A stretch of DNA of 10,267 bases, taken from the NCBI GenBank assembly GCA_020061125.1, contig JAGUYV010000053.1, positions 1-10,267 of the forward strand. Direction: 5' to 3'. Position 1 is the stretch's first letter. Each line of letters starts with the position of its first letter. This document shows positions 773 to 9,888 of the stretch, in pieces. The position numbers and the translations under genes are program-made. The notes beneath the pieces are model-generated. The model saw only the letters and a program-made list of their open reading frames with translations, was not told where the DNA came from and searched no databases. Source of the DNA: a bacterium. Lineage in GTDB: Bacteria; UBP15; UBA6099; DSWB01.

Positions 773-790
773 ACCTTTGAGAATTGCGCG

Positions 791-796
791 GGGAGG
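791..796 (+). promoter_or_regulatory. Ribosome binding site that fixes the alpha-mannosidase start
   Basis: GGGAGG sits 4 bases before ATG 801. An in-frame TTG at 777 would add eight residues, but it has no binding site and lies at the predicted transcription start. ATG 801 also puts the signal peptide exactly at the N terminus. Confidence 0.7.
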
Positions 797-800
797 ATTC

Positions 801-3800
801 ATGAACAAGAACCTTTTCAGATTCCTGCACATAATGGTGTTGCTTATCGGCGCTCAATGGATTCAGCCGGAATGCCGCGCCCAGGTCGAGGAAGTCTATC
901 TCACGCCGCATTTTCATTACGACCCGGTGTTTCAGGAGGATCAGAACGATTACACGGCCGTGGGCTTCGACAGGTGCCGTAGATTTCTCGCGGATCTGGC
1001 CGCGGACCCGGACTACGCCGTTGTATTCTCGGAAATTGATTATATGAAACCGTTCTTCGACGCATTCCCCGAAGAGCGCGCGGATGTTTTAACGCTGATC
1101 GCGGGGCGCCGCATCGAGACGGGCGGGTCGTATTCCGAACCCAACGAATTGAGCATCGGCGGCGAGGGGATCATCCGCAACATTCTGTACGGCCGCGCGT
1201 ATCACGAGGGCGTGCTGGGCGACACGCGCGCCGGGGTGTACATGCCGTTCGATGTGTTCGGACATTCCATGCAGTTGACGCAGATTCTGGCCAAAACGCG
1301 CTATCAGGGCTGCATCTGGCGCAAGGGCAACCCGCCCACGGAGAAATGGGTGGGCGTCACGGTTCCGGGCCTGCCCCCGGATTTCATGAGCGTGGCCCCG
1401 GACGGCTCGACCCTGCACCACCGGCGCGAGCACTACAAGGCCATCAGCGGCACAAAATCCCTCGAGCAGCTCACCGGCGATGTGATGCGCAAGATCCGCA
1501 CGCAGGAGGCGCTGGGCTGGCGCGCGGATTTCGCCACCCTGTCCTCCGCGGATTTCGCATACCCCGAGCCGTGGCTGGCCGGGCACGGCGCCGCGCTCAA
1601 GGCGCAAACGCCGTCCATCCTGCTGTCCGGCCCGCTGGCGTATTTCGAAGCCATAAAGAGACAGTCGGAAGCGGAGGGCAAGCGCCTGCCCGAGGTGGCG
1701 CGAGATTTCTCGCTCTACCATGCGGGCACCGCGCTCACGCGCGTGAATCTCAAGATGGCGAACCGCTACGCCGAGAACGCGCTCCTGTCCGCGGAAAAAT
1801 ATTCCGCCATGGCCGCGCTCCTGGGCGCGCGCTATCCCGAGGCCGCGCTGGACAAGGCATGGCGGCAGGTGATCTTCAACCAACACCACGACGGCATCAC
1901 GGGCACATGCAACGACCGCTCGTATTTCGACATGATGGGCGGCTACCGCGAAGCTCTGGAGCTGGCCGCGGGCGTGCGGGACAACGCCGCGGCGTTTCTC
2001 GCGAAACAGGTGAACACGGCCGCGGCCGCGCCCGCCGGGGCCGCGGAATCTTTTCCCATTGTGGTGTTCAATCCGCTTGGACACGCGCACACGGGCGTGG
2101 TGTCCCTGCCCTGGATGCAGGAAATCCCGGCCGGGATTTCATTCACGGATTCCAGCGGCGCGCCCGTGGATGCGGAGATCACCGGCGCACGCATGCGCGG
2201 CATGAATCCGCTCGAATTCCGGTACCGGTTCGTGGCGCGCGGCGTGCCGCCCATGGGACACAAAACCTATTACATGTCCGTGGACCGCGCGGCCATGAAC
2301 AACAGCGGGGATTTCGAGTGGGTTGACGAGAGCGGCCCCGCAGTGATTGAAAACGAATTTTTCCGCGTGGCCGTGGACCCCGCGCGCGGGGGAGCCGTCA
2401 CGGATCTGCTCGACAAGCAGGCGAACCGGCGCATCGTGGATGCGGATTCGGCATTCCCCGGCAACGAGCTGATCGTGCTCCAGGAAGACCGGGGGCCGCA
2501 GTATCCGGCGTGGGAATTGTCCACCACGGGCGTCAAGGACATGTCCTCGAAGCGCGCGGCCGAGGTGCGCGTGAAGAGGCGTCCCGTGTCGCAGACCATC
2601 GAGGTGCGCGGAAGCCTGCCGGGCCTGGGCGATTTTCTGCAGGAGATCATTCTTTACAAGGGAATCAAGCGCATTGATTTCGTCACCACCATCGCGAATC
2701 CCGCATCGGTCGCAGATGAAAACGACCGCAACCTGTGGATGGTGCGATTTCCGGCCAGACTGAACGGAACCGCGCCCGTGGTGGAAGACCGCTTTTTCGC
2801 GGCCGCGCGGCGGCGCAGCCTGGAGCCGCTCTCGTACCGCACGGATCTCGAAAAGATGCTCACGCAGAGCGCACCCTATTCGGCCGGGCAATGGGTGGAG
2901 GAAGGCGCGGCCGTGCGCCTGGACATTCTGGACCCGGACGGCAAAACCGCGGATGCGCTGGCCCTGCAACTGTGCGGCATCGTGCACACCGCCGCGCCCG
3001 AGTCCGTGGCCGCCGCGCAATCCCTTCAACGCGCGCTCATTCAACGCGGGGTGTCCTGCACGCCCGCAATAGACTCGGAAAACCAGAACGCCGACTTACT
3101 GAACCGCAACTTCCGTTTCGTCCTGGACATCGCCGGGGACAACGCCTACGCCGCGGCCGCTCTCAAGGGCAAACGCCGGGAAGCCTACACACAATGGCTT
3201 GCTGAAACCGGAACCGCGAAAATCCTGTTCGAGGCCCTGGCCAACGATCTGAACATCAAGAAAGTCACGACCCTGGCCATCGGGGCCAAAGACGCCGCGG
3301 CCATGGGCGCGCTCATCGCGGACATCACGGAAACCATCAAGCGGGACGCGCGCATCAGAATCAGCAACCGCGAGGACACGCGCGGCAAGAGCGAACGCGC
3401 GGCGCCGGACGACTACGGCATCGCATTGATAAACCAGGGAACGATCCTGCACAGTTTCGACGGCAACGGCGCAATCGTCATGGGCCTGTTCCATTCGGCG
3501 CAATGGGCCAAAGACCTCATGGGCACGCCATTCACATTTCCGGAGAACAAAACGCACCGGTTCACCTATTCGCTGTATCCGCACCAGGGCGACTGGCGCG
3601 CGGCGGACACCTGGAAAGCGGCGCAGGAGGTAAACGCTCCCCTGTCCGCGGCCATGACGGACATTCACCCCGGGCCGCTGCCGGCGGTCGGTTCATTCAT
3701 AAACATCACCTCGGACAGTGTGGCGCTTTCGGCGGTCAAGGCCGCGGGCAATCCCCTGGCGTTCATGCAAACCGCCGTGCAGGCCGGTCCGCACCGGGGC

Positions 3801-4808
3801 GTAGTGATCCGGCTCAACGAAACCGAGGGCAAGCCGGACACCGCCACGCTGGAGTTCTTCCGCCCGGTCAAGGCGGTCTGGCGCGCGAATATGATCGAGG
3901 AAAAGACCGGAGATGCGCCGCTGCCCCTGTCCGGACCGCGCACGCTCAAGCTCGACATCGGCCCCAACGCCGTGGAAACCATTGTCGTGGAATTCGCGGA
4001 CGCGCAACCGGCCGCGCCCGGCGCACCCGCGCTGGGGCCCGAGTCCGAGCCGCCCGGGGCGATCTTTTCCAAGTACTGGGACTACAACCTTGGCGCGGCG
4101 TATATGCGGAACTCGCCGGTCACGGTCAGCGTGGGATTCCCACCCGGGGAACTGCTTGATCCGGAGCAGATCAGGCTCGGAATCGTCAAGGCGGGAGAAC
4201 CCGGGATTGGCAAGGGCGAGAACAGGCTGCGCCTGGCCGTGTCCAACAACAGCGCGGACGCGCGGCTCAAGGGCAGAGTCACGGTGAGCATTCCCCAGGG
4301 CTGGAGTGCGGAGCCTGATGTACTGGGCGTGGACCTCGGTCCCCTGGAATTTCAAACCGTTGATCTCACGGTGCATGCGGAACGGCCTGTGGAATCGGGC
4401 TGGGTGCGCGCGGATTTCTTGTCAGACGCCGGGGAGCGGTATTTTGACGCGCTGCGCATCCGGCAGGCCGCGCCCCTGGACGCCACGGCCGAGACCGCGC
4501 ATTCGCCGGATCGCCTTATCGTGCGCTTACGCAACAACCAGCAGGACCGCATCACCGGAGCGGTCATGCCCGTAACGCCCATGGAAGCCTGGCCCGAAGC
4601 GCTTTCGGGCGGTGTTTCTTTTGTGTCTGGATTCGACAGGGCCAAACAATTCGATCTCGCGGCCGGGGAAACTGCGGATCTTGAATTCGGGTTCCGCGTA
4701 AATGCGCCGGATCTTCCAGGCGCGGGGCGGTTCTGGATCATGGTGAAAATCCTTTATAACGGCGAATTTTTGTATATTCCCGTGCATGCGGGATCCCGGA
4801 AAGGCTGA
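801..4808 (+). CDS. Exported glycoside hydrolase family 38 alpha-mannosidase, multidomain
   Basis: This 1335-residue protein should hydrolyse alpha-mannosides outside the cytoplasm. Residues 1-27 look like a signal peptide with likely cleavage after CRA; no lipobox is present. Family 38 catalytic marks are clear. HFHYDPVF supplies zinc ligands His39 and Asp41, FDVFGHS supplies the nucleophile and ligand Asp151, and NQHHDGITGT supplies His363. The N-terminal catalytic domain spans about 32-300, the helical middle domain about 305-395, and the C-terminal beta region about 505-1067. Two features are unusual. The beta region is interrupted by an alpha/beta-like stretch at about 711-868. After a Pro/Ala-rich linker (about 1068-1085) come two beta-rich modules (about 1086-1219 and 1235-1335) resembling NEW3-type domains of secreted glycosidases. 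Phe44 replaces the tryptophan usual in this motif. Family and metal site are secure; the natural substrate (mannan, N-glycan or other alpha-mannoside) is not. Confidence 0.93.
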   Translation: MNKNLFRFLHIMVLLIGAQWIQPECRAQVEEVYLTPHFHYDPVFQEDQNDYTAVGFDRCRRFLADLAADPDYAVVFSEIDYMKPFFDAFPEERADVLTLIAGRRIETGGSYSEPNELSIGGEGIIRNILYGRAYHEGVLGDTRAGVYMPFDVFGHSMQLTQILAKTRYQGCIWRKGNPPTEKWVGVTVPGLPPDFMSVAPDGSTLHHRREHYKAISGTKSLEQLTGDVMRKIRTQEALGWRADFATLSSADFAYPEPWLAGHGAALKAQTPSILLSGPLAYFEAIKRQSEAEGKRLPEVARDFSLYHAGTALTRVNLKMANRYAENALLSAEKYSAMAALLGARYPEAALDKAWRQVIFNQHHDGITGTCNDRSYFDMMGGYREALELAAGVRDNAAAFLAKQVNTAAAAPAGAAESFPIVVFNPLGHAHTGVVSLPWMQEIPAGISFTDSSGAPVDAEITGARMRGMNPLEFRYRFVARGVPPMGHKTYYMSVDRAAMNNSGDFEWVDESGPAVIENEFFRVAVDPARGGAVTDLLDKQANRRIVDADSAFPGNELIVLQEDRGPQYPAWELSTTGVKDMSSKRAAEVRVKRRPVSQTIEVRGSLPGLGDFLQEIILYKGIKRIDFVTTIANPASVADENDRNLWMVRFPARLNGTAPVVEDRFFAAARRRSLEPLSYRTDLEKMLTQSAPYSAGQWVEEGAAVRLDILDPDGKTADALALQLCGIVHTAAPESVAAAQSLQRALIQRGVSCTPAIDSENQNADLLNRNFRFVLDIAGDNAYAAAALKGKRREAYTQWLAETGTAKILFEALANDLNIKKVTTLAIGAKDAAAMGALIADITETIKRDARIRISNREDTRGKSERAAPDDYGIALINQGTILHSFDGNGAIVMGLFHSAQWAKDLMGTPFTFPENKTHRFTYSLYPHQGDWRAADTWKAAQEVNAPLSAAMTDIHPGPLPAVGSFINITSDSVALSAVKAAGNPLAFMQTAVQAGPHRGVVIRLNETEGKPDTATLEFFRPVKAVWRANMIEEKTGDAPLPLSGPRTLKLDIGPNAVETIVVEFADAQPAAPGAPALGPESEPPGAIFSKYWDYNLGAAYMRNSPVTVSVGFPPGELLDPEQIRLGIVKAGEPGIGKGENRLRLAVSNNSADARLKGRVTVSIPQGWSAEPDVLGVDLGPLEFQTVDLTVHAERPVESGWVRADFLSDAGERYFDALRIRQAAPLDATAETAHSPDRLIVRLRNNQQDRITGAVMPVTPMEAWPEALSGGVSFVSGFDRAKQFDLAAGETADLEFGFRVNAPDLPGAGRFWIMVKILYNGEFLYIPVHAGSRKG

Positions 4809-4853
4809 ACCAAATCCGGGTGGCGGCTGTCAAAAGGGGAAGTGGGCCAAGAG

Positions 4854-4874
4854 CCGGAGATTGTGCAATTCCGG
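4854..4874. other. Dyad upstream of the sigma factor gene, possible operator
   Basis: CCGGA at 4854-4858 pairs with TCCGG at 4870-4874, and ATT (4860-4862) pairs with AAT (4867-4869), around a GTGC loop with a single unpaired G at 4859. No T tract follows, so it is not an intrinsic terminator of the mannosidase gene. It lies some 45-65 bases upstream of the predicted start of sigma factor transcription, a place where a regulator could bind. Function is inference only. Confidence 0.3.
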
Positions 4875-4882
4875 TGTAAGCC

Positions 4883-4912
4883 TTCATGCGCGGGGCCGCA
4901 TTACGCTATAAT
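4883..4912 (+). promoter_or_regulatory. Putative promoter of the sigma factor operon
   Basis: TATAAT at 4907-4912 is a perfect -10. The -35 is poor (TTCATG at 4883-4888, 18-base spacer). Predicted transcription would begin at about 4918-4920, only 6-8 bases before ATG 4926, so the message would be almost leaderless. This context resembles the mannosidase promoter, which also has an exact TATAAT preceded by GC-rich DNA and a weak -35. No terminator is seen after the mannosidase gene, so read-through from it is also possible. Confidence 0.45.
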
Positions 4913-4925
4913 TGCCGGTGACACG

Positions 4926-5528
4926 ATGACCGACACTTTACTGACACCGGAACTGGAACAGAAACTGCTGGAGCGCGCACGCCGGGGCGACGGCGAGGCG
5001 TTCGGACGCATTTACGATGCGTACAAGCGGAATCTGTATGTAACGGTGATTTATCCGCGCGTGAACGACGCGGACGCGGCCGAAGAGGTGCTGCAGGAGA
5101 CCTTTCTCCTGGCCCTGAACAAGCTCGACACCTTCGAGTGGCAGGGGCGGAGCATTTTTTTCTGGCTGCGCATGATCGCCATTAACAAGGCGCGCGAGTG
5201 GATCAACAGCCAGCGCCGCCACGCCACCGTTGACGAGGAAGTCTTGAACTACCAGCACGATGTGAGCTTCCAGCCCGAGCGGGACACCATAGAAAAGGAG
5301 CAGACCGAGGCGCTGGCCGCGCGCATCGCCGAGGTGCTCGGGCAGATCAACGAGCGTTACCGCGAGGCCATCGAGCTGCGCCTCAAGAAAAAACTGCCGC
5401 GCGACGAATGCGCCCGCATCCTGGATGTGACCGTTGAAACTTTCGATGTGATCTTTTTCCGGGCCTGTAAGTCTTTCAGGCAGAAATATATTAAGAAGTA
5501 CGGAGATTTTGCGGGGTCGCCCATCTGA
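4926..5528 (+). CDS. ECF-type RNA polymerase sigma factor
   Basis: The 200-residue product has the two-domain layout of extracytoplasmic-function sigma factors. Region 2 lies at about 12-98: RARRGDGEAFGRIYDAY, the AAEEVLQETFLLAL core-binding helix, then the -10-reading segment ending in NKAREWINSQRRH. Region 4 lies at about 128-190, with a helix-turn-helix around RDECARILDVTVETFDVIFFRACKSFR. The recognition helix (ETFDVIFFRACKSF) departs from the common TVKSRLxRA pattern. ATG 4926 was chosen because it starts right at the family N terminus. An in-frame GTG at 4842 would add 28 unlike residues and has a purine tract (4835-4840) too close to use. The Shine-Dalgarno is weak (GGTGA, 4917-4921). 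It directs RNA polymerase to an unknown regulon. The next gene, 42 bases on, encodes a one-pass membrane protein, the usual place for a sigma regulator. Confidence 0.9.
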   Translation: MTDTLLTPELEQKLLERARRGDGEAFGRIYDAYKRNLYVTVIYPRVNDADAAEEVLQETFLLALNKLDTFEWQGRSIFFWLRMIAINKAREWINSQRRHATVDEEVLNYQHDVSFQPERDTIEKEQTEALAARIAEVLGQINERYREAIELRLKKKLPRDECARILDVTVETFDVIFFRACKSFRQKYIKKYGDFAGSPI

Positions 5529-6808: not shown

Positions 6809-7996
6809 CTACGCCTCGCGCTTCACGATCATGGTGACGCTTTCCGCGCCGCCGAGGCACAGGGAGGCCTGGCCCAGGGTTGCGCCGCGGCGCGGCATTT
6901 CGTGAAGCAGCGTGGTGAGCACGCGCGCGCCGCTGCACCCGATGGGATGGCCCAAGGCTACTGCCCCGCCGTTCACATTGCAGATCTCCGGGTCTATACC
7001 CAACTCGCGCTGCACGCACAGGGTCGAGCCGCTGAACGCTTCGTTCACTTCGTGCAGCTCGATATCCTTCACGGACAAGCCCGCGATGCCAAGCACTTTG
7101 GGGATGGATTTGATGGGGGCGATGAGCACATATTTGAGTTCAAGCCCGGAACTGCCATAGGCCACGATGGACGCCAGCGGCTTGACGCCGAGTTCTTCGG
7201 CTTTGCTGCGCGACATGATGCAAATGGCGCTGGCGCCGTCGGCGATGACCGACGAATTGCCCGCGGTGGCGAACCCCTGTTTCTGGAACGCGGGCTTCAT
7301 CTTCGAGAGAATTTCGTATGAGGTGTCTCGCGGGTTCTCGTCGGTGTCGAACACCGTGACCGCGCCCTTTTTGCCGGGAATTTCCACAGGCACGATTTCT
7401 TCCTTGAACCGGCCCGTGGCGATGGAGTTCATGGCGCGCGCGTAGGTCATTTCCGCATATCGGTCCTGGTCCTCGCGCGAGATATTGTAGTCCGTGCAGA
7501 TGATGTCGTTGCTGATGCCCATGTGGAAATCGTTGACCACATCCCAGAGGCCGTCGTGCACCATGTGGTCAATGATTTTAGCGTTGCCCATGCGATAGCC
7601 GGTGCGCGCGCGCTCCATGTAGTAGGGCGCGTTGCTCATGCTCTCCATTCCGCCGGCAATGATGATGTGGCTGTCGCCCGCGCGGATGGCCTGGGCCGCG
7701 AGCATTACGGCCTTGAGTCCGCCGCCGCACACTTTGTTGATGGTGAGCGCGCCGGTCTCGAACGGAAGGCCCGCTTTGAGCATGGCCAGGCGCGCGGGGT
7801 TCTGCCCGCACCCGCAGGGAAGCACCTGCCCCATGATCACTTCCTCGACCTGCTCTTTGTCAACGCCCGCCCGGCGGATGGCCTCGGCGATGACAAGCGA
7901 TCCCAGGGTCACGGCGTCCACGGGCGCGAGGGAGCCGAGAAAACCTCCCAGAGGCGTACGGCACGCACTCACGATAACTGCTTCATTCGGGTTCAT
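6809..7996 (-). CDS. Thiolase family protein (acetyl-CoA acetyltransferase-like)
   Basis: The 395-residue length is standard for thiolases, which split or condense 3-ketoacyl-CoA using two cysteines and a histidine. The catalytic set is present at the expected spacing: nucleophile Cys90 in NKVCGGGL, Asn318 in NEAF, His350 in GHPIGCSG, and Cys380 in LCLGGAES. HMG near the middle matches the acyl-pocket loop of biosynthetic thiolases. Several loops are unusual. CGGG replaces CGSG, the NASGxNDGA pantetheine-binding stretch reads NSSVIADGA, and CLGGA replaces CxGGG. The enzyme is therefore probably active but of a divergent clade with uncertain chain-length preference. ATG 7996 is chosen because GGAGG lies 8 bases upstream (8005-8009). 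An upstream in-frame start at 8047 adds 17 unlike residues and would fall within the inserted repeat element. It is the second gene after the CoA-transferase. Confidence 0.9.
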   Translation of the reverse strand: MNPNEAVIVSACRTPLGGFLGSLAPVDAVTLGSLVIAEAIRRAGVDKEQVEEVIMGQVLPCGCGQNPARLAMLKAGLPFETGALTINKVCGGGLKAVMLAAQAIRAGDSHIIIAGGMESMSNAPYYMERARTGYRMGNAKIIDHMVHDGLWDVVNDFHMGISNDIICTDYNISREDQDRYAEMTYARAMNSIATGRFKEEIVPVEIPGKKGAVTVFDTDENPRDTSYEILSKMKPAFQKQGFATAGNSSVIADGASAICIMSRSKAEELGVKPLASIVAYGSSGLELKYVLIAPIKSIPKVLGIAGLSVKDIELHEVNEAFSGSTLCVQRELGIDPEICNVNGGAVALGHPIGCSGARVLTTLLHEMPRRGATLGQASLCLGGAESVTMIVKREA

Positions 7997-8033: not shown

Positions 8034-8168
8034 GTCTCTAAACCCAATACTGTTCAAATAAGGGGAAACCCGGCCCGGCCCAAAAATCCGACCCTCGACA
8101 TCCTGTCCCCTGGATTCCGGTCCTCTGACCGGAATGACGGCTTGAGCAAACGGTATTGTCTCTAAACC
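8034..8168. mobile_element. MITE-like insertion with flanking direct repeats
   Basis: GTCTCTAAACC occurs exactly at 8034-8044 and again at 8158-8168. The DNA between the repeats (8045-8158, 114 bp) begins CAATACTGTT and ends AACGGTATTG, a 10-bp terminal inverted repeat with one mismatch. The last G of the right terminus coincides with the first G of the right repeat, so the target duplication may be 10 bp. The element encodes no protein and contains a 9-bp-arm palindrome at 8114-8135. It sits wholly between two co-oriented genes. Excising it together with one repeat would leave a 55-bp operon-like spacer. This structure fits a non-autonomous transposable element; the parent transposase is not in the window. 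Confidence 0.6.
8114..8135. repeat. Palindromic repeat unit inside the inserted element
   Basis: ATTCCGGTC (8114-8122) and GACCGGAAT (8127-8135) form a perfect 9-bp hairpin around CTCT, flanked by TGG on the left and GACGG on the right. The TGGATTCC...GGAATGACGG frame resembles intergenic palindromes scattered in many bacterial genomes, such as the Neisseria dRS3 type (recollection, not a search). No T tract follows on either strand, so it is not a terminator. Confidence 0.6.
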
Positions 8169-8175
8169 TCATCAA

Positions 8176-9888
8176 TCAGGACAGGAACAGCTTCTTGAGA
8201 TCGTAGCCCTGGCCGGTCATGATGTCCGCGCCCACCAGGGGCACTTCGCCGCTCTCGGGCAGAACCACTTTCATGGTGCAGCCATTGATGATGTCCTTCT
8301 GGATGTCCACGCCGGGCGTGACGCGGATCAATTCCATGCCGCGCTCCGTGAGCTTGAACACGCCCACATTGGTGCAGTAGAAAACCGTTTTGCCGGCCTT
8401 GAGCGCCTCGGGACCGCAGAAGGTGACCTCGTCCACTTTGTCCACGAACTTCGGCGTGCCCGGCTGCGCGATGTTGAGCTTGCCGTCCTTGATTTCCATT
8501 TTGGCATGCGCCATCCAGGTGCCCACGAACACGACCATCCTGGCGGCTGTGGTGAGGTCAATGAACCCGCCCGGTCCAACATAGTTGATGGCGCCCTTGC
8601 CGCGGTTGGATACATTCACATTGCCCAGGCTGTCGGCCTGGAGCACGCCCAGGCAGGTGACATCGAGTTTCTCGTAGCACATTTTGAAAATCTGGGGCGA
8701 GGTGATGATGCGCTTGGGATTCACGCCCGCGCCGAAGAACACGCCGGGTGCGGGCAGCCCGCCCATGACGCCGCTCTCGGTGAGCAGCGTGATGTCCTCG
8801 AAAAGGCCCCCCTCGAACATGAGGCGGCACACTTCCTCGGGCAGGCCCACGCCGATGTTCACGAACATGCCCTTTTGCCCGTTTTCCGCGAAGGTGGCCG
8901 CGGCCAGTCGCGCCAGGCAGTTCTCCACTTCATAGCGCCGCGGGGTGATGCCCAGGGTCTGGTTGGCGAACTTGAGCATGGCGATGCCCTTCTCGATGGG
9001 CAGGTCGCTGTTGGTGGTGAACAGGGGCCAGTGCTTGCGGTGGCTGATGCTGCCGGTCTGCTCGGTGCCGGGATACACCACCACGGCGTCCACCATGTCC
9101 GCGGGCATGAAGATGTCGTCGTAGCCCTCGTCCACCAGCAGGCCCACATTGGCGATGACCTTGCCGCCGTTTCTCTTGGCGGCCACGGACATCTCATAAC
9201 TCTCGCCCACCATGGAGCAGTTCTTGACATAGATGTTGCCCTTGCGGTCCGCGGCCGGGGCGTTGAAAAACGACACATTCGGCTTGGGGCAGGTGAAGCA
9301 GAGCATGTCGTCCTTGACCGTGACGAGCTGCCCGTGCGCCGGGTCCATGAGCGGCGTGCCGCGGCCCGTGCGCGGGTCCACGAATGTGCCCGTGCCCGTG
9401 GTGGTGCAATATTCGCTCTCGCCGCGCGCCAGCGCGTCCCACAGCAGCGCCATGGTGCCCTGGGGGATAATCTGCACCTCGCACTTGCCTGCGTCAGCCA
9501 GCTTGAGCACGGCTTTGAATGTTTCCATGTGCCCGGAAATGAAGCGCGTGACCAGGCCCTCGACGCCGAGTTCGTCAAATGTGCCCGGCGCCTTGCCGCG
9601 CCCGCCGTGGCCCCCGATGCTCATGAGCGTCAGCCCGCGCGGATGCCCGGTTTCCTTGTAGATTTCCTGGATGGCCCAGTACATGATGGACGCGCGCTGG
9701 TTGCCGCCCAGCCCCGAATTCACTACCACATCGCCGTCCTTGATGAGCCTGACCGCGTCGCGCGGACCCATGAATTTGGGATTGTCCGGCAGGGTGAACC
9801 GGTAATGCGTGTTGCGGCGGTTCCATGTCAGACGCCATTTAATCAAATGTGCGAGTACGCGCGCTTTTTCTGCAAATGTCAGACTCAT
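8176..9888 (-). CDS. Family I CoA-transferase, fused alpha and beta domains (acetate/propionate or 3-keto acid CoA-transferase-like)
   Basis: The 570-residue protein joins the two subunits of family I CoA-transferases, as in propionate CoA-transferases and YdiF-type enzymes. The alpha-like domain begins near 40 (RDAVRLIKDGDVVVNSG) and runs to about 300. The beta-like domain covers about 315-550, with the GVGLPEEV loop at 346-353. The expected catalytic glutamate, which forms a glutamyl-CoA thioester, is Glu371 in LLTESGVMGGLPAPG; this departs from the family pattern of VExGxxGGxP in the residue after Glu. Residues 1-39 are a basic extension before the domain. The enzyme should move CoA between short-chain acids in the cytoplasm; the exact acid pair is not readable. 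ATG 9888 has GGAG 8 bases upstream (9897-9900) and a promoter about 40 bases away. The thiolase gene lies downstream on the same strand, so together they could activate and cleave a keto acid. Confidence 0.9.
   Translation of the reverse strand: MSLTFAEKARVLAHLIKWRLTWNRRNTHYRFTLPDNPKFMGPRDAVRLIKDGDVVVNSGLGGNQRASIMYWAIQEIYKETGHPRGLTLMSIGGHGGRGKAPGTFDELGVEGLVTRFISGHMETFKAVLKLADAGKCEVQIIPQGTMALLWDALARGESEYCTTTGTGTFVDPRTGRGTPLMDPAHGQLVTVKDDMLCFTCPKPNVSFFNAPAADRKGNIYVKNCSMVGESYEMSVAAKRNGGKVIANVGLLVDEGYDDIFMPADMVDAVVVYPGTEQTGSISHRKHWPLFTTNSDLPIEKGIAMLKFANQTLGITPRRYEVENCLARLAAATFAENGQKGMFVNIGVGLPEEVCRLMFEGGLFEDITLLTESGVMGGLPAPGVFFGAGVNPKRIITSPQIFKMCYEKLDVTCLGVLQADSLGNVNVSNRGKGAINYVGPGGFIDLTTAARMVVFVGTWMAHAKMEIKDGKLNIAQPGTPKFVDKVDEVTFCGPEALKAGKTVFYCTNVGVFKLTERGMELIRVTPGVDIQKDIINGCTMKVVLPESGEVPLVGADIMTGQGYDLKKLFLS

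Follow-up and report, generated by a model that had tools for sequence, protein, structure and literature searches.

Window positions 8045–8158 contain a 114 bp MITE (plus strand) without an ORF; the window is the whole stretch of DNA analysed, 10,267 nucleotides in length. The element is very probably a non-autonomous member of the IS4 family, in its IS4 subgroup, moved by an IS4-type transposase encoded elsewhere and carrying a CGTC REP along with it. Directly seen are its ends, the length of its target site duplication, copies at unrelated sites, the target motif and, in a relative, an IS4-family IS whose ends match. Among MITEs it is an ordinary element of a known type. The unexpected part is the cargo, a CGTC REP unit inside a moved IS4-type shell, in an order where the unit is also free-standing at high copy number. 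The first-pass annotation, made from the sequence alone, was right on the kind of element, an IS4-type MITE, and missed the REP interior.

Boundaries and target duplication

A repeat search of the 179 bp spacer in which the element lies revealed one direct pair, one inverted pair and no others. The direct repeat, GTCTCTAAACC, is found at 8034–8044 and 8158–8168; the inverted repeat, CAATACTGTT/AACGGTATTG, matches at 9/10 positions (8045–8054 and 8149–8158). The first pass had reported both, the latter as 10-base termini with one mismatch, as is the case, and the former as an 11-base direct repeat. That sequence repeat is present, but the duplication itself is 10 bp, not 11, because the G at 8158 closes the element itself and matches G8034 by coincidence. 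The target site duplications, TCTCTAAACC with a central TA, thus occupy 8035–8044 and 8159–8168 and are identical at 10/10 positions. Duplications of the same length flank other copies and related ISs, so that the predicted transposition stands with an exact repeat of 10 bp from the range of 10–11 bp first given. Alignment of the copies extends the ends to a degenerate 18 bp inverted repeat of about CAATACCGTTCACTTAAG, represented by CAATACTGTTCAAATAAG on the left (8045–8062, plus strand) and CAATACCGTTTGCTCAAG on the right (8141–8158, minus strand; 3 mismatches versus CAATRCYGTTCANNTAAG).

The arrangement of direct and inverted repeats at 8034–8168 is not due to chance. When exact 10 bp direct repeats 60–400 bp apart were considered across the whole window, an inverted repeat lay just inside the pair at the MITE only (9/10); at all other exact 10 bp direct-repeat pairs window-wide the inner inverted repeat reached 5/10 or less. 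The size (within 70–300 bp), the terminal inverted repeats and the lack of coding capacity are those of a MITE, as are the dispersed copies with target duplications and the ends held in common with an autonomous IS, L087, of genome G001.

Copies, shared ends and a candidate mobilizing IS

The genome to which the window belongs (G000; 4.1 Mb in 513 contigs, 79 % complete) contains four more full-length copies, 79–85 % identical (C411, C422, C288 and C294; E down to 4e-31), and two partial copies (C410 and C210), all with different flanks and beside unrelated genes. The C411 copy is bounded by an exact 10 bp duplication, CGGTTAAAAG; imperfect duplications are present at C288 (6/10) and C422, and no recognizable duplication was found in the flanks of the C294, C410 and C210 copies. 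Two further full-length copies are present in G001, a genome of the same order, one with an exact duplication, ACCTTAGTCG (C112), and one with a 7/10 duplication (C58). The first pass had proposed a search for further copies, whose absence would have told against a mobile element, and they occur in both genomes. Three of the full-length copies (five in the window's own genome, two in G001) have exact 10 bp duplications. Since the seven, of 113–115 bp, align end to end across two genomes, several with their own duplications, the short form itself has moved. G001 corresponds to the MAG Dive96_bin1.91 (L104, JAJRTR010000138.1); the Dive96 sample came from a vent chimney on the Southwest Indian Ridge (PMC9769843).

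A search for DDE_Tnp_1 (PF01609) transposases over seven genomes of the order led to L087 in G001. This IS is 1,496 bp long, and its ends, CAATACCGTTCAGTTAAG and CAATGCCGTTCAGTTAAG, match those of the MITE. Its single ORF encodes a transposase of 408 aa that is over the cut-off of NCBIfam NF033592 (IS4 family; E 9e-66), shares 29 % identity with InsG of E. coli IS4 and contains the DDE Y(2)R(3)E(6)K motif, reading YEQRQEIEFTFDEIK. The flanks of L087, compared with each other, gave no match. Among the plasmid relatives of L087 that were read, 7/14 have an exact 10 bp duplication, all with TA at positions 5–6 and six of the seven as YTAR. The same YTAR is found in each of the four exact duplications of miniature elements: TCTCTAAACC, CGGTTAAAAG, ACCTTAGTCG and, at G001:C48, CCCTTAGAAC.

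The IS4 subgroup is defined by ends of the form -AATR--------WTW---- and direct repeats of 10–13 bp (De Palmenaer et al., PMC2266710). The left end of the window copy matches this motif in full; the right end is off at one base, at which the copy consensus fits, and the exact 10 bp duplication lies within the range. Because IS4-family ends match and the 10 bp central-TA duplications are shared, this is an IS4-subgroup MITE which, judging from these sequences, was probably moved in trans. The IS4-type mobilizer predicted in the first pass is therefore supported by an IS with matching ends in a relative; no transposase with such ends was found in the window's own genome (79 % complete), so L087 is linked to the MITE as the same kind of mobilizer and not as one from the same strain.

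An IS4-type DDE transposase encoded elsewhere would have recognized the 18 bp inverted repeats, in ancestral form about CAATACCGTTCACTTAAG, and the 114 bp element would have been inserted at a target with YTAR at its centre, TCTCTAAACC in this case. The 10 bp duplication would then have arisen from repair of the staggered cut, and the REP hairpin in the interior would have moved as a passenger. A cut-and-paste step is suggested by the known behaviour of the IS4 family. The insertion had also been called recent, which is not upheld: the perfect duplication favours it, but divergence of 15–21 % between copies does not, the nearest sister copy being merely 85 % identical, and neither does the failure to find a cognate transposase in the incomplete own genome.

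Other candidates for the autonomous partner were rejected. C291 (L041) is an intact IS4-family IS with a 400 aa transposase, but has different ends, with an inverted repeat around CCCATAAGCGTTAACTTAAGG. The DDE gene of C240 is broken. A possible 1.56 kb IS on C210 (692–2249) has no transposase inside, and its second end was taken as chance; on C118 just one end matches, and no second end bounded by a duplication accompanies it.

In its -AATR...WTW ends and 10 bp duplication, the MITE is like the IS4-subgroup elements E. coli IS4 (ends TAATGCC..TCAGTTAAG in NC_000913) and L087, and its central-TA target is that of the relatives of L087. It differs from the ISs of this subgroup in having no transposase gene and in its length of 114 bp versus about 1.4–1.65 kb, while the duplication of E. 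coli IS4 is longer, about 12 bp in the copy that was read, versus 10 bp for the MITE. Mobile insertion cassettes such as MIC231 of Bacillus cereus are non-autonomous elements with IS231 ends, within the IS4 family, which are moved in trans and carry genes. MIC231 is thus like the MITE in being non-autonomous with IS4-family ends, but is of the IS231 subgroup and gene-bearing, whereas the MITE is small, non-coding and REP-carrying. RUP, NEMIS/Correia, ERIC and Nezha belong to transposase families other than that of this MITE. Their ends also differ from its ends; they are likewise non-coding elements of 70–300 bp with inverted ends, often intergenic (listed in PMC3733652).

The REP hairpin and other interiors

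The internal palindrome noted in the first pass, ATTCCGGTCCTCTGACCGGAAT at 8114–8135, forms the stem and loop of a CGTC-type REP unit at 8111–8139 (minus strand). CGTC REPs have a CGTC tag, a stem of 8–9 bp beginning AT (A-T, T-A pairs), a loop of 4–5 nt and a CCA tail (PMC3733652), and the window hairpin fits in all of these: the tag is at 8136–8139, a nine-pair stem with a 4 nt loop is at 8114–8135 and the tail is at 8111–8113. The minus strand reads CGTC-ATTCCGGTC-AGAG-GACCGGAAT-CCA, the ninth stem pair being C-G in the window copy. One stem pair covaries, as G-C, U-A, A-U or C-G by copy, and is paired in 18/19 distinct sequences.

The unit lies within a core module at 8068–8139 (minus strand), which is common to about 77 repeats without ends in G005, a genome of another family in the same order. 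The module is delimited by BLAST similarity, a covariance model and the conserved boundaries of the G005 unit, which is about 60–65 nt long, from CCCCGAAA to GACG. Core similarity of 76–86 % gave 41 BLAST matches in G005, and the covariance model gave 77; those of model R1 that span 1–114 count for the core alone, because the copies were checked and are without ends. The exact hairpin pattern occurs 46 times in G005 and four times in G000; the other 384 genomes searched have no instance of it. G005 therefore has the high copy number expected of a CGTC REP (46 exact-pattern and about 77 model matches), while the window's own genome has just four to six hairpins, all within MITE copies or fragments. 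The G005 loci L029–L040, L073–L082 and L124–L136 are copies of the module without recognizable transposon ends. Head-to-head dimers predominate among CGTC REPs and are not described as obligatory (PMC3733652); the MITE holds a single unit, and inverted pairs at up to 300 bp are few among the G005 loci read.

CGTC REPs are widespread; they are reported to have no associated transposase genes, and their movement by other transposases has been left open (Di Nocera et al., 2013, PMC3733652). Both the CGTC-type hairpin with its covarying stem pair and its multiplication in G005 without ends could suit an element mobilized primarily by a RAYT, through single-strand hairpin transposition, with the IS4-like ends incidental. 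Transposition of the RAYT type (IS200/IS605 group) would make no 10 bp target duplications, yet these sit exactly outside the IS4-type ends, and elements with the same ends hold different interiors. The order's 16 Y1_Tnp loci also gave no such hairpin in the surrounding DNA that was retrieved. The tag, CGTC, is not that of GTAG-type REPs or REPINs mobilized by RAYTs, and no REP-flanked Y1_Tnp gene was found. This explanation is thus highly improbable. A one-off, internally deleted IS remnant, as opposed to a family mobile in its short form, is slightly less credible still. The ends match an IS and MITEs often arise by internal deletion of an IS, but the seven aligned copies with their several duplications argue against a single remnant, and the interior is a REP module with no match in the IS4-type IS.

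The preferred reading, an IS4-subgroup MITE with a REP passenger, shares with the CGTC REP super-family (PMC3733652) the lack of any RAYT found in association. It differs in that the REP lies inside a MITE with IS4-type ends and target duplications, the module is longer (60–70 nt) and the units are mostly single. As CGTC REPs are reported without a dedicated transposase, the element shows one way in which a REP can travel. The CGTC REP may have been captured by an IS4-type shell or released later from the MITE core. A search of the accessible literature for CGTC REPs together with MITEs did not find this arrangement reported, which is weak evidence of novelty. The question of CGTC REP mobility becomes testable with one transposase and one 114 bp substrate.

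Reading of 284 kb of G001 revealed five miniature elements with paired ends (92, 113, 114, 126 and 152 bp; duplications of 7–10/10), from which element density in that genome is not to be inferred because some of the contigs read had been selected on earlier matches. Ten shuffled ends gave none in the same 284 kb. The REP core is present in 2/5, and the other three have mutually unrelated interiors. These are an element of 92 bp (L188:3624–3715), one of 126 bp at C35 (L189:6225–6350), the interior of which is a long palindrome with a fold z of −9.2, and one of 152 bp (L180:10398–10549), with a further matching end at L180:10847. In the 529 kb of the window's own genome that were read, again from partly chosen contigs, the REP-core type alone was recognized. 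The shell interiors in the order thus include at least four that are unrelated, at least two of them hairpin-forming. A tentative and on balance doubtful extension is that IS4-subgroup ends form a reusable shell that takes up REP-like hairpins and spreads them, and that may have seeded the G005 expansion without ends. If so, CGTC REPs, lacking a transposase of their own, would gain a route of spread.

Genes around the insertion

The insertion lies downstream of a CoA-transferase gene (8176–9888, minus strand; 3-oxoacid/acetate CoA-transferase models, below their cut-offs; 71 % identical to the G001 orthologue) and upstream of a thiolase gene (6809–7996, minus strand; acetyl-CoA C-acyltransferase type, TIGR01930 over cut-off). 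Removal of the element and one repeat does reduce the gap from 179 to 55 bp, as calculated in the first pass, which took the insertion to have split an operon. This second point found no support, as no examined relative has a thiolase adjoining this CoA-transferase. An empty site was sought in relatives, none of which has the two genes side by side; the scan of genome contigs obtained just three distant relatives. The other CoA-transferase relatives are Hydrogenedentota and Desulfobacteraceae MAGs, so sampling of the lineage is sparse.

A change in thiolase output, also suggested at first, is likewise not borne out: no terminator-like or promoter-like site was found in the 114 bp element, no reading frame is broken and the thiolase GGAGG site, past the insertion point and ahead of the start codon, is undisturbed. 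If transcribed, the hairpin could possibly affect the mRNA between the two genes. A stable hairpin between two same-strand genes might suggest a conserved regulatory element of their transcript (an attenuator, riboswitch or processing site), but this is the least probable of the explanations, hardly to be entertained given copies at unrelated genes, relatives without the gene pair, no Rfam match, no terminator-like site and a fold of the whole element that does not surpass those of shuffled sequences (z −0.44). Elsewhere in the window, a large ORF at 777–4808 resembles, by eye, a family-38 alpha-mannosidase, and is followed at 4842–5528 by an ORF that, again by eye, is ECF-sigma-like.
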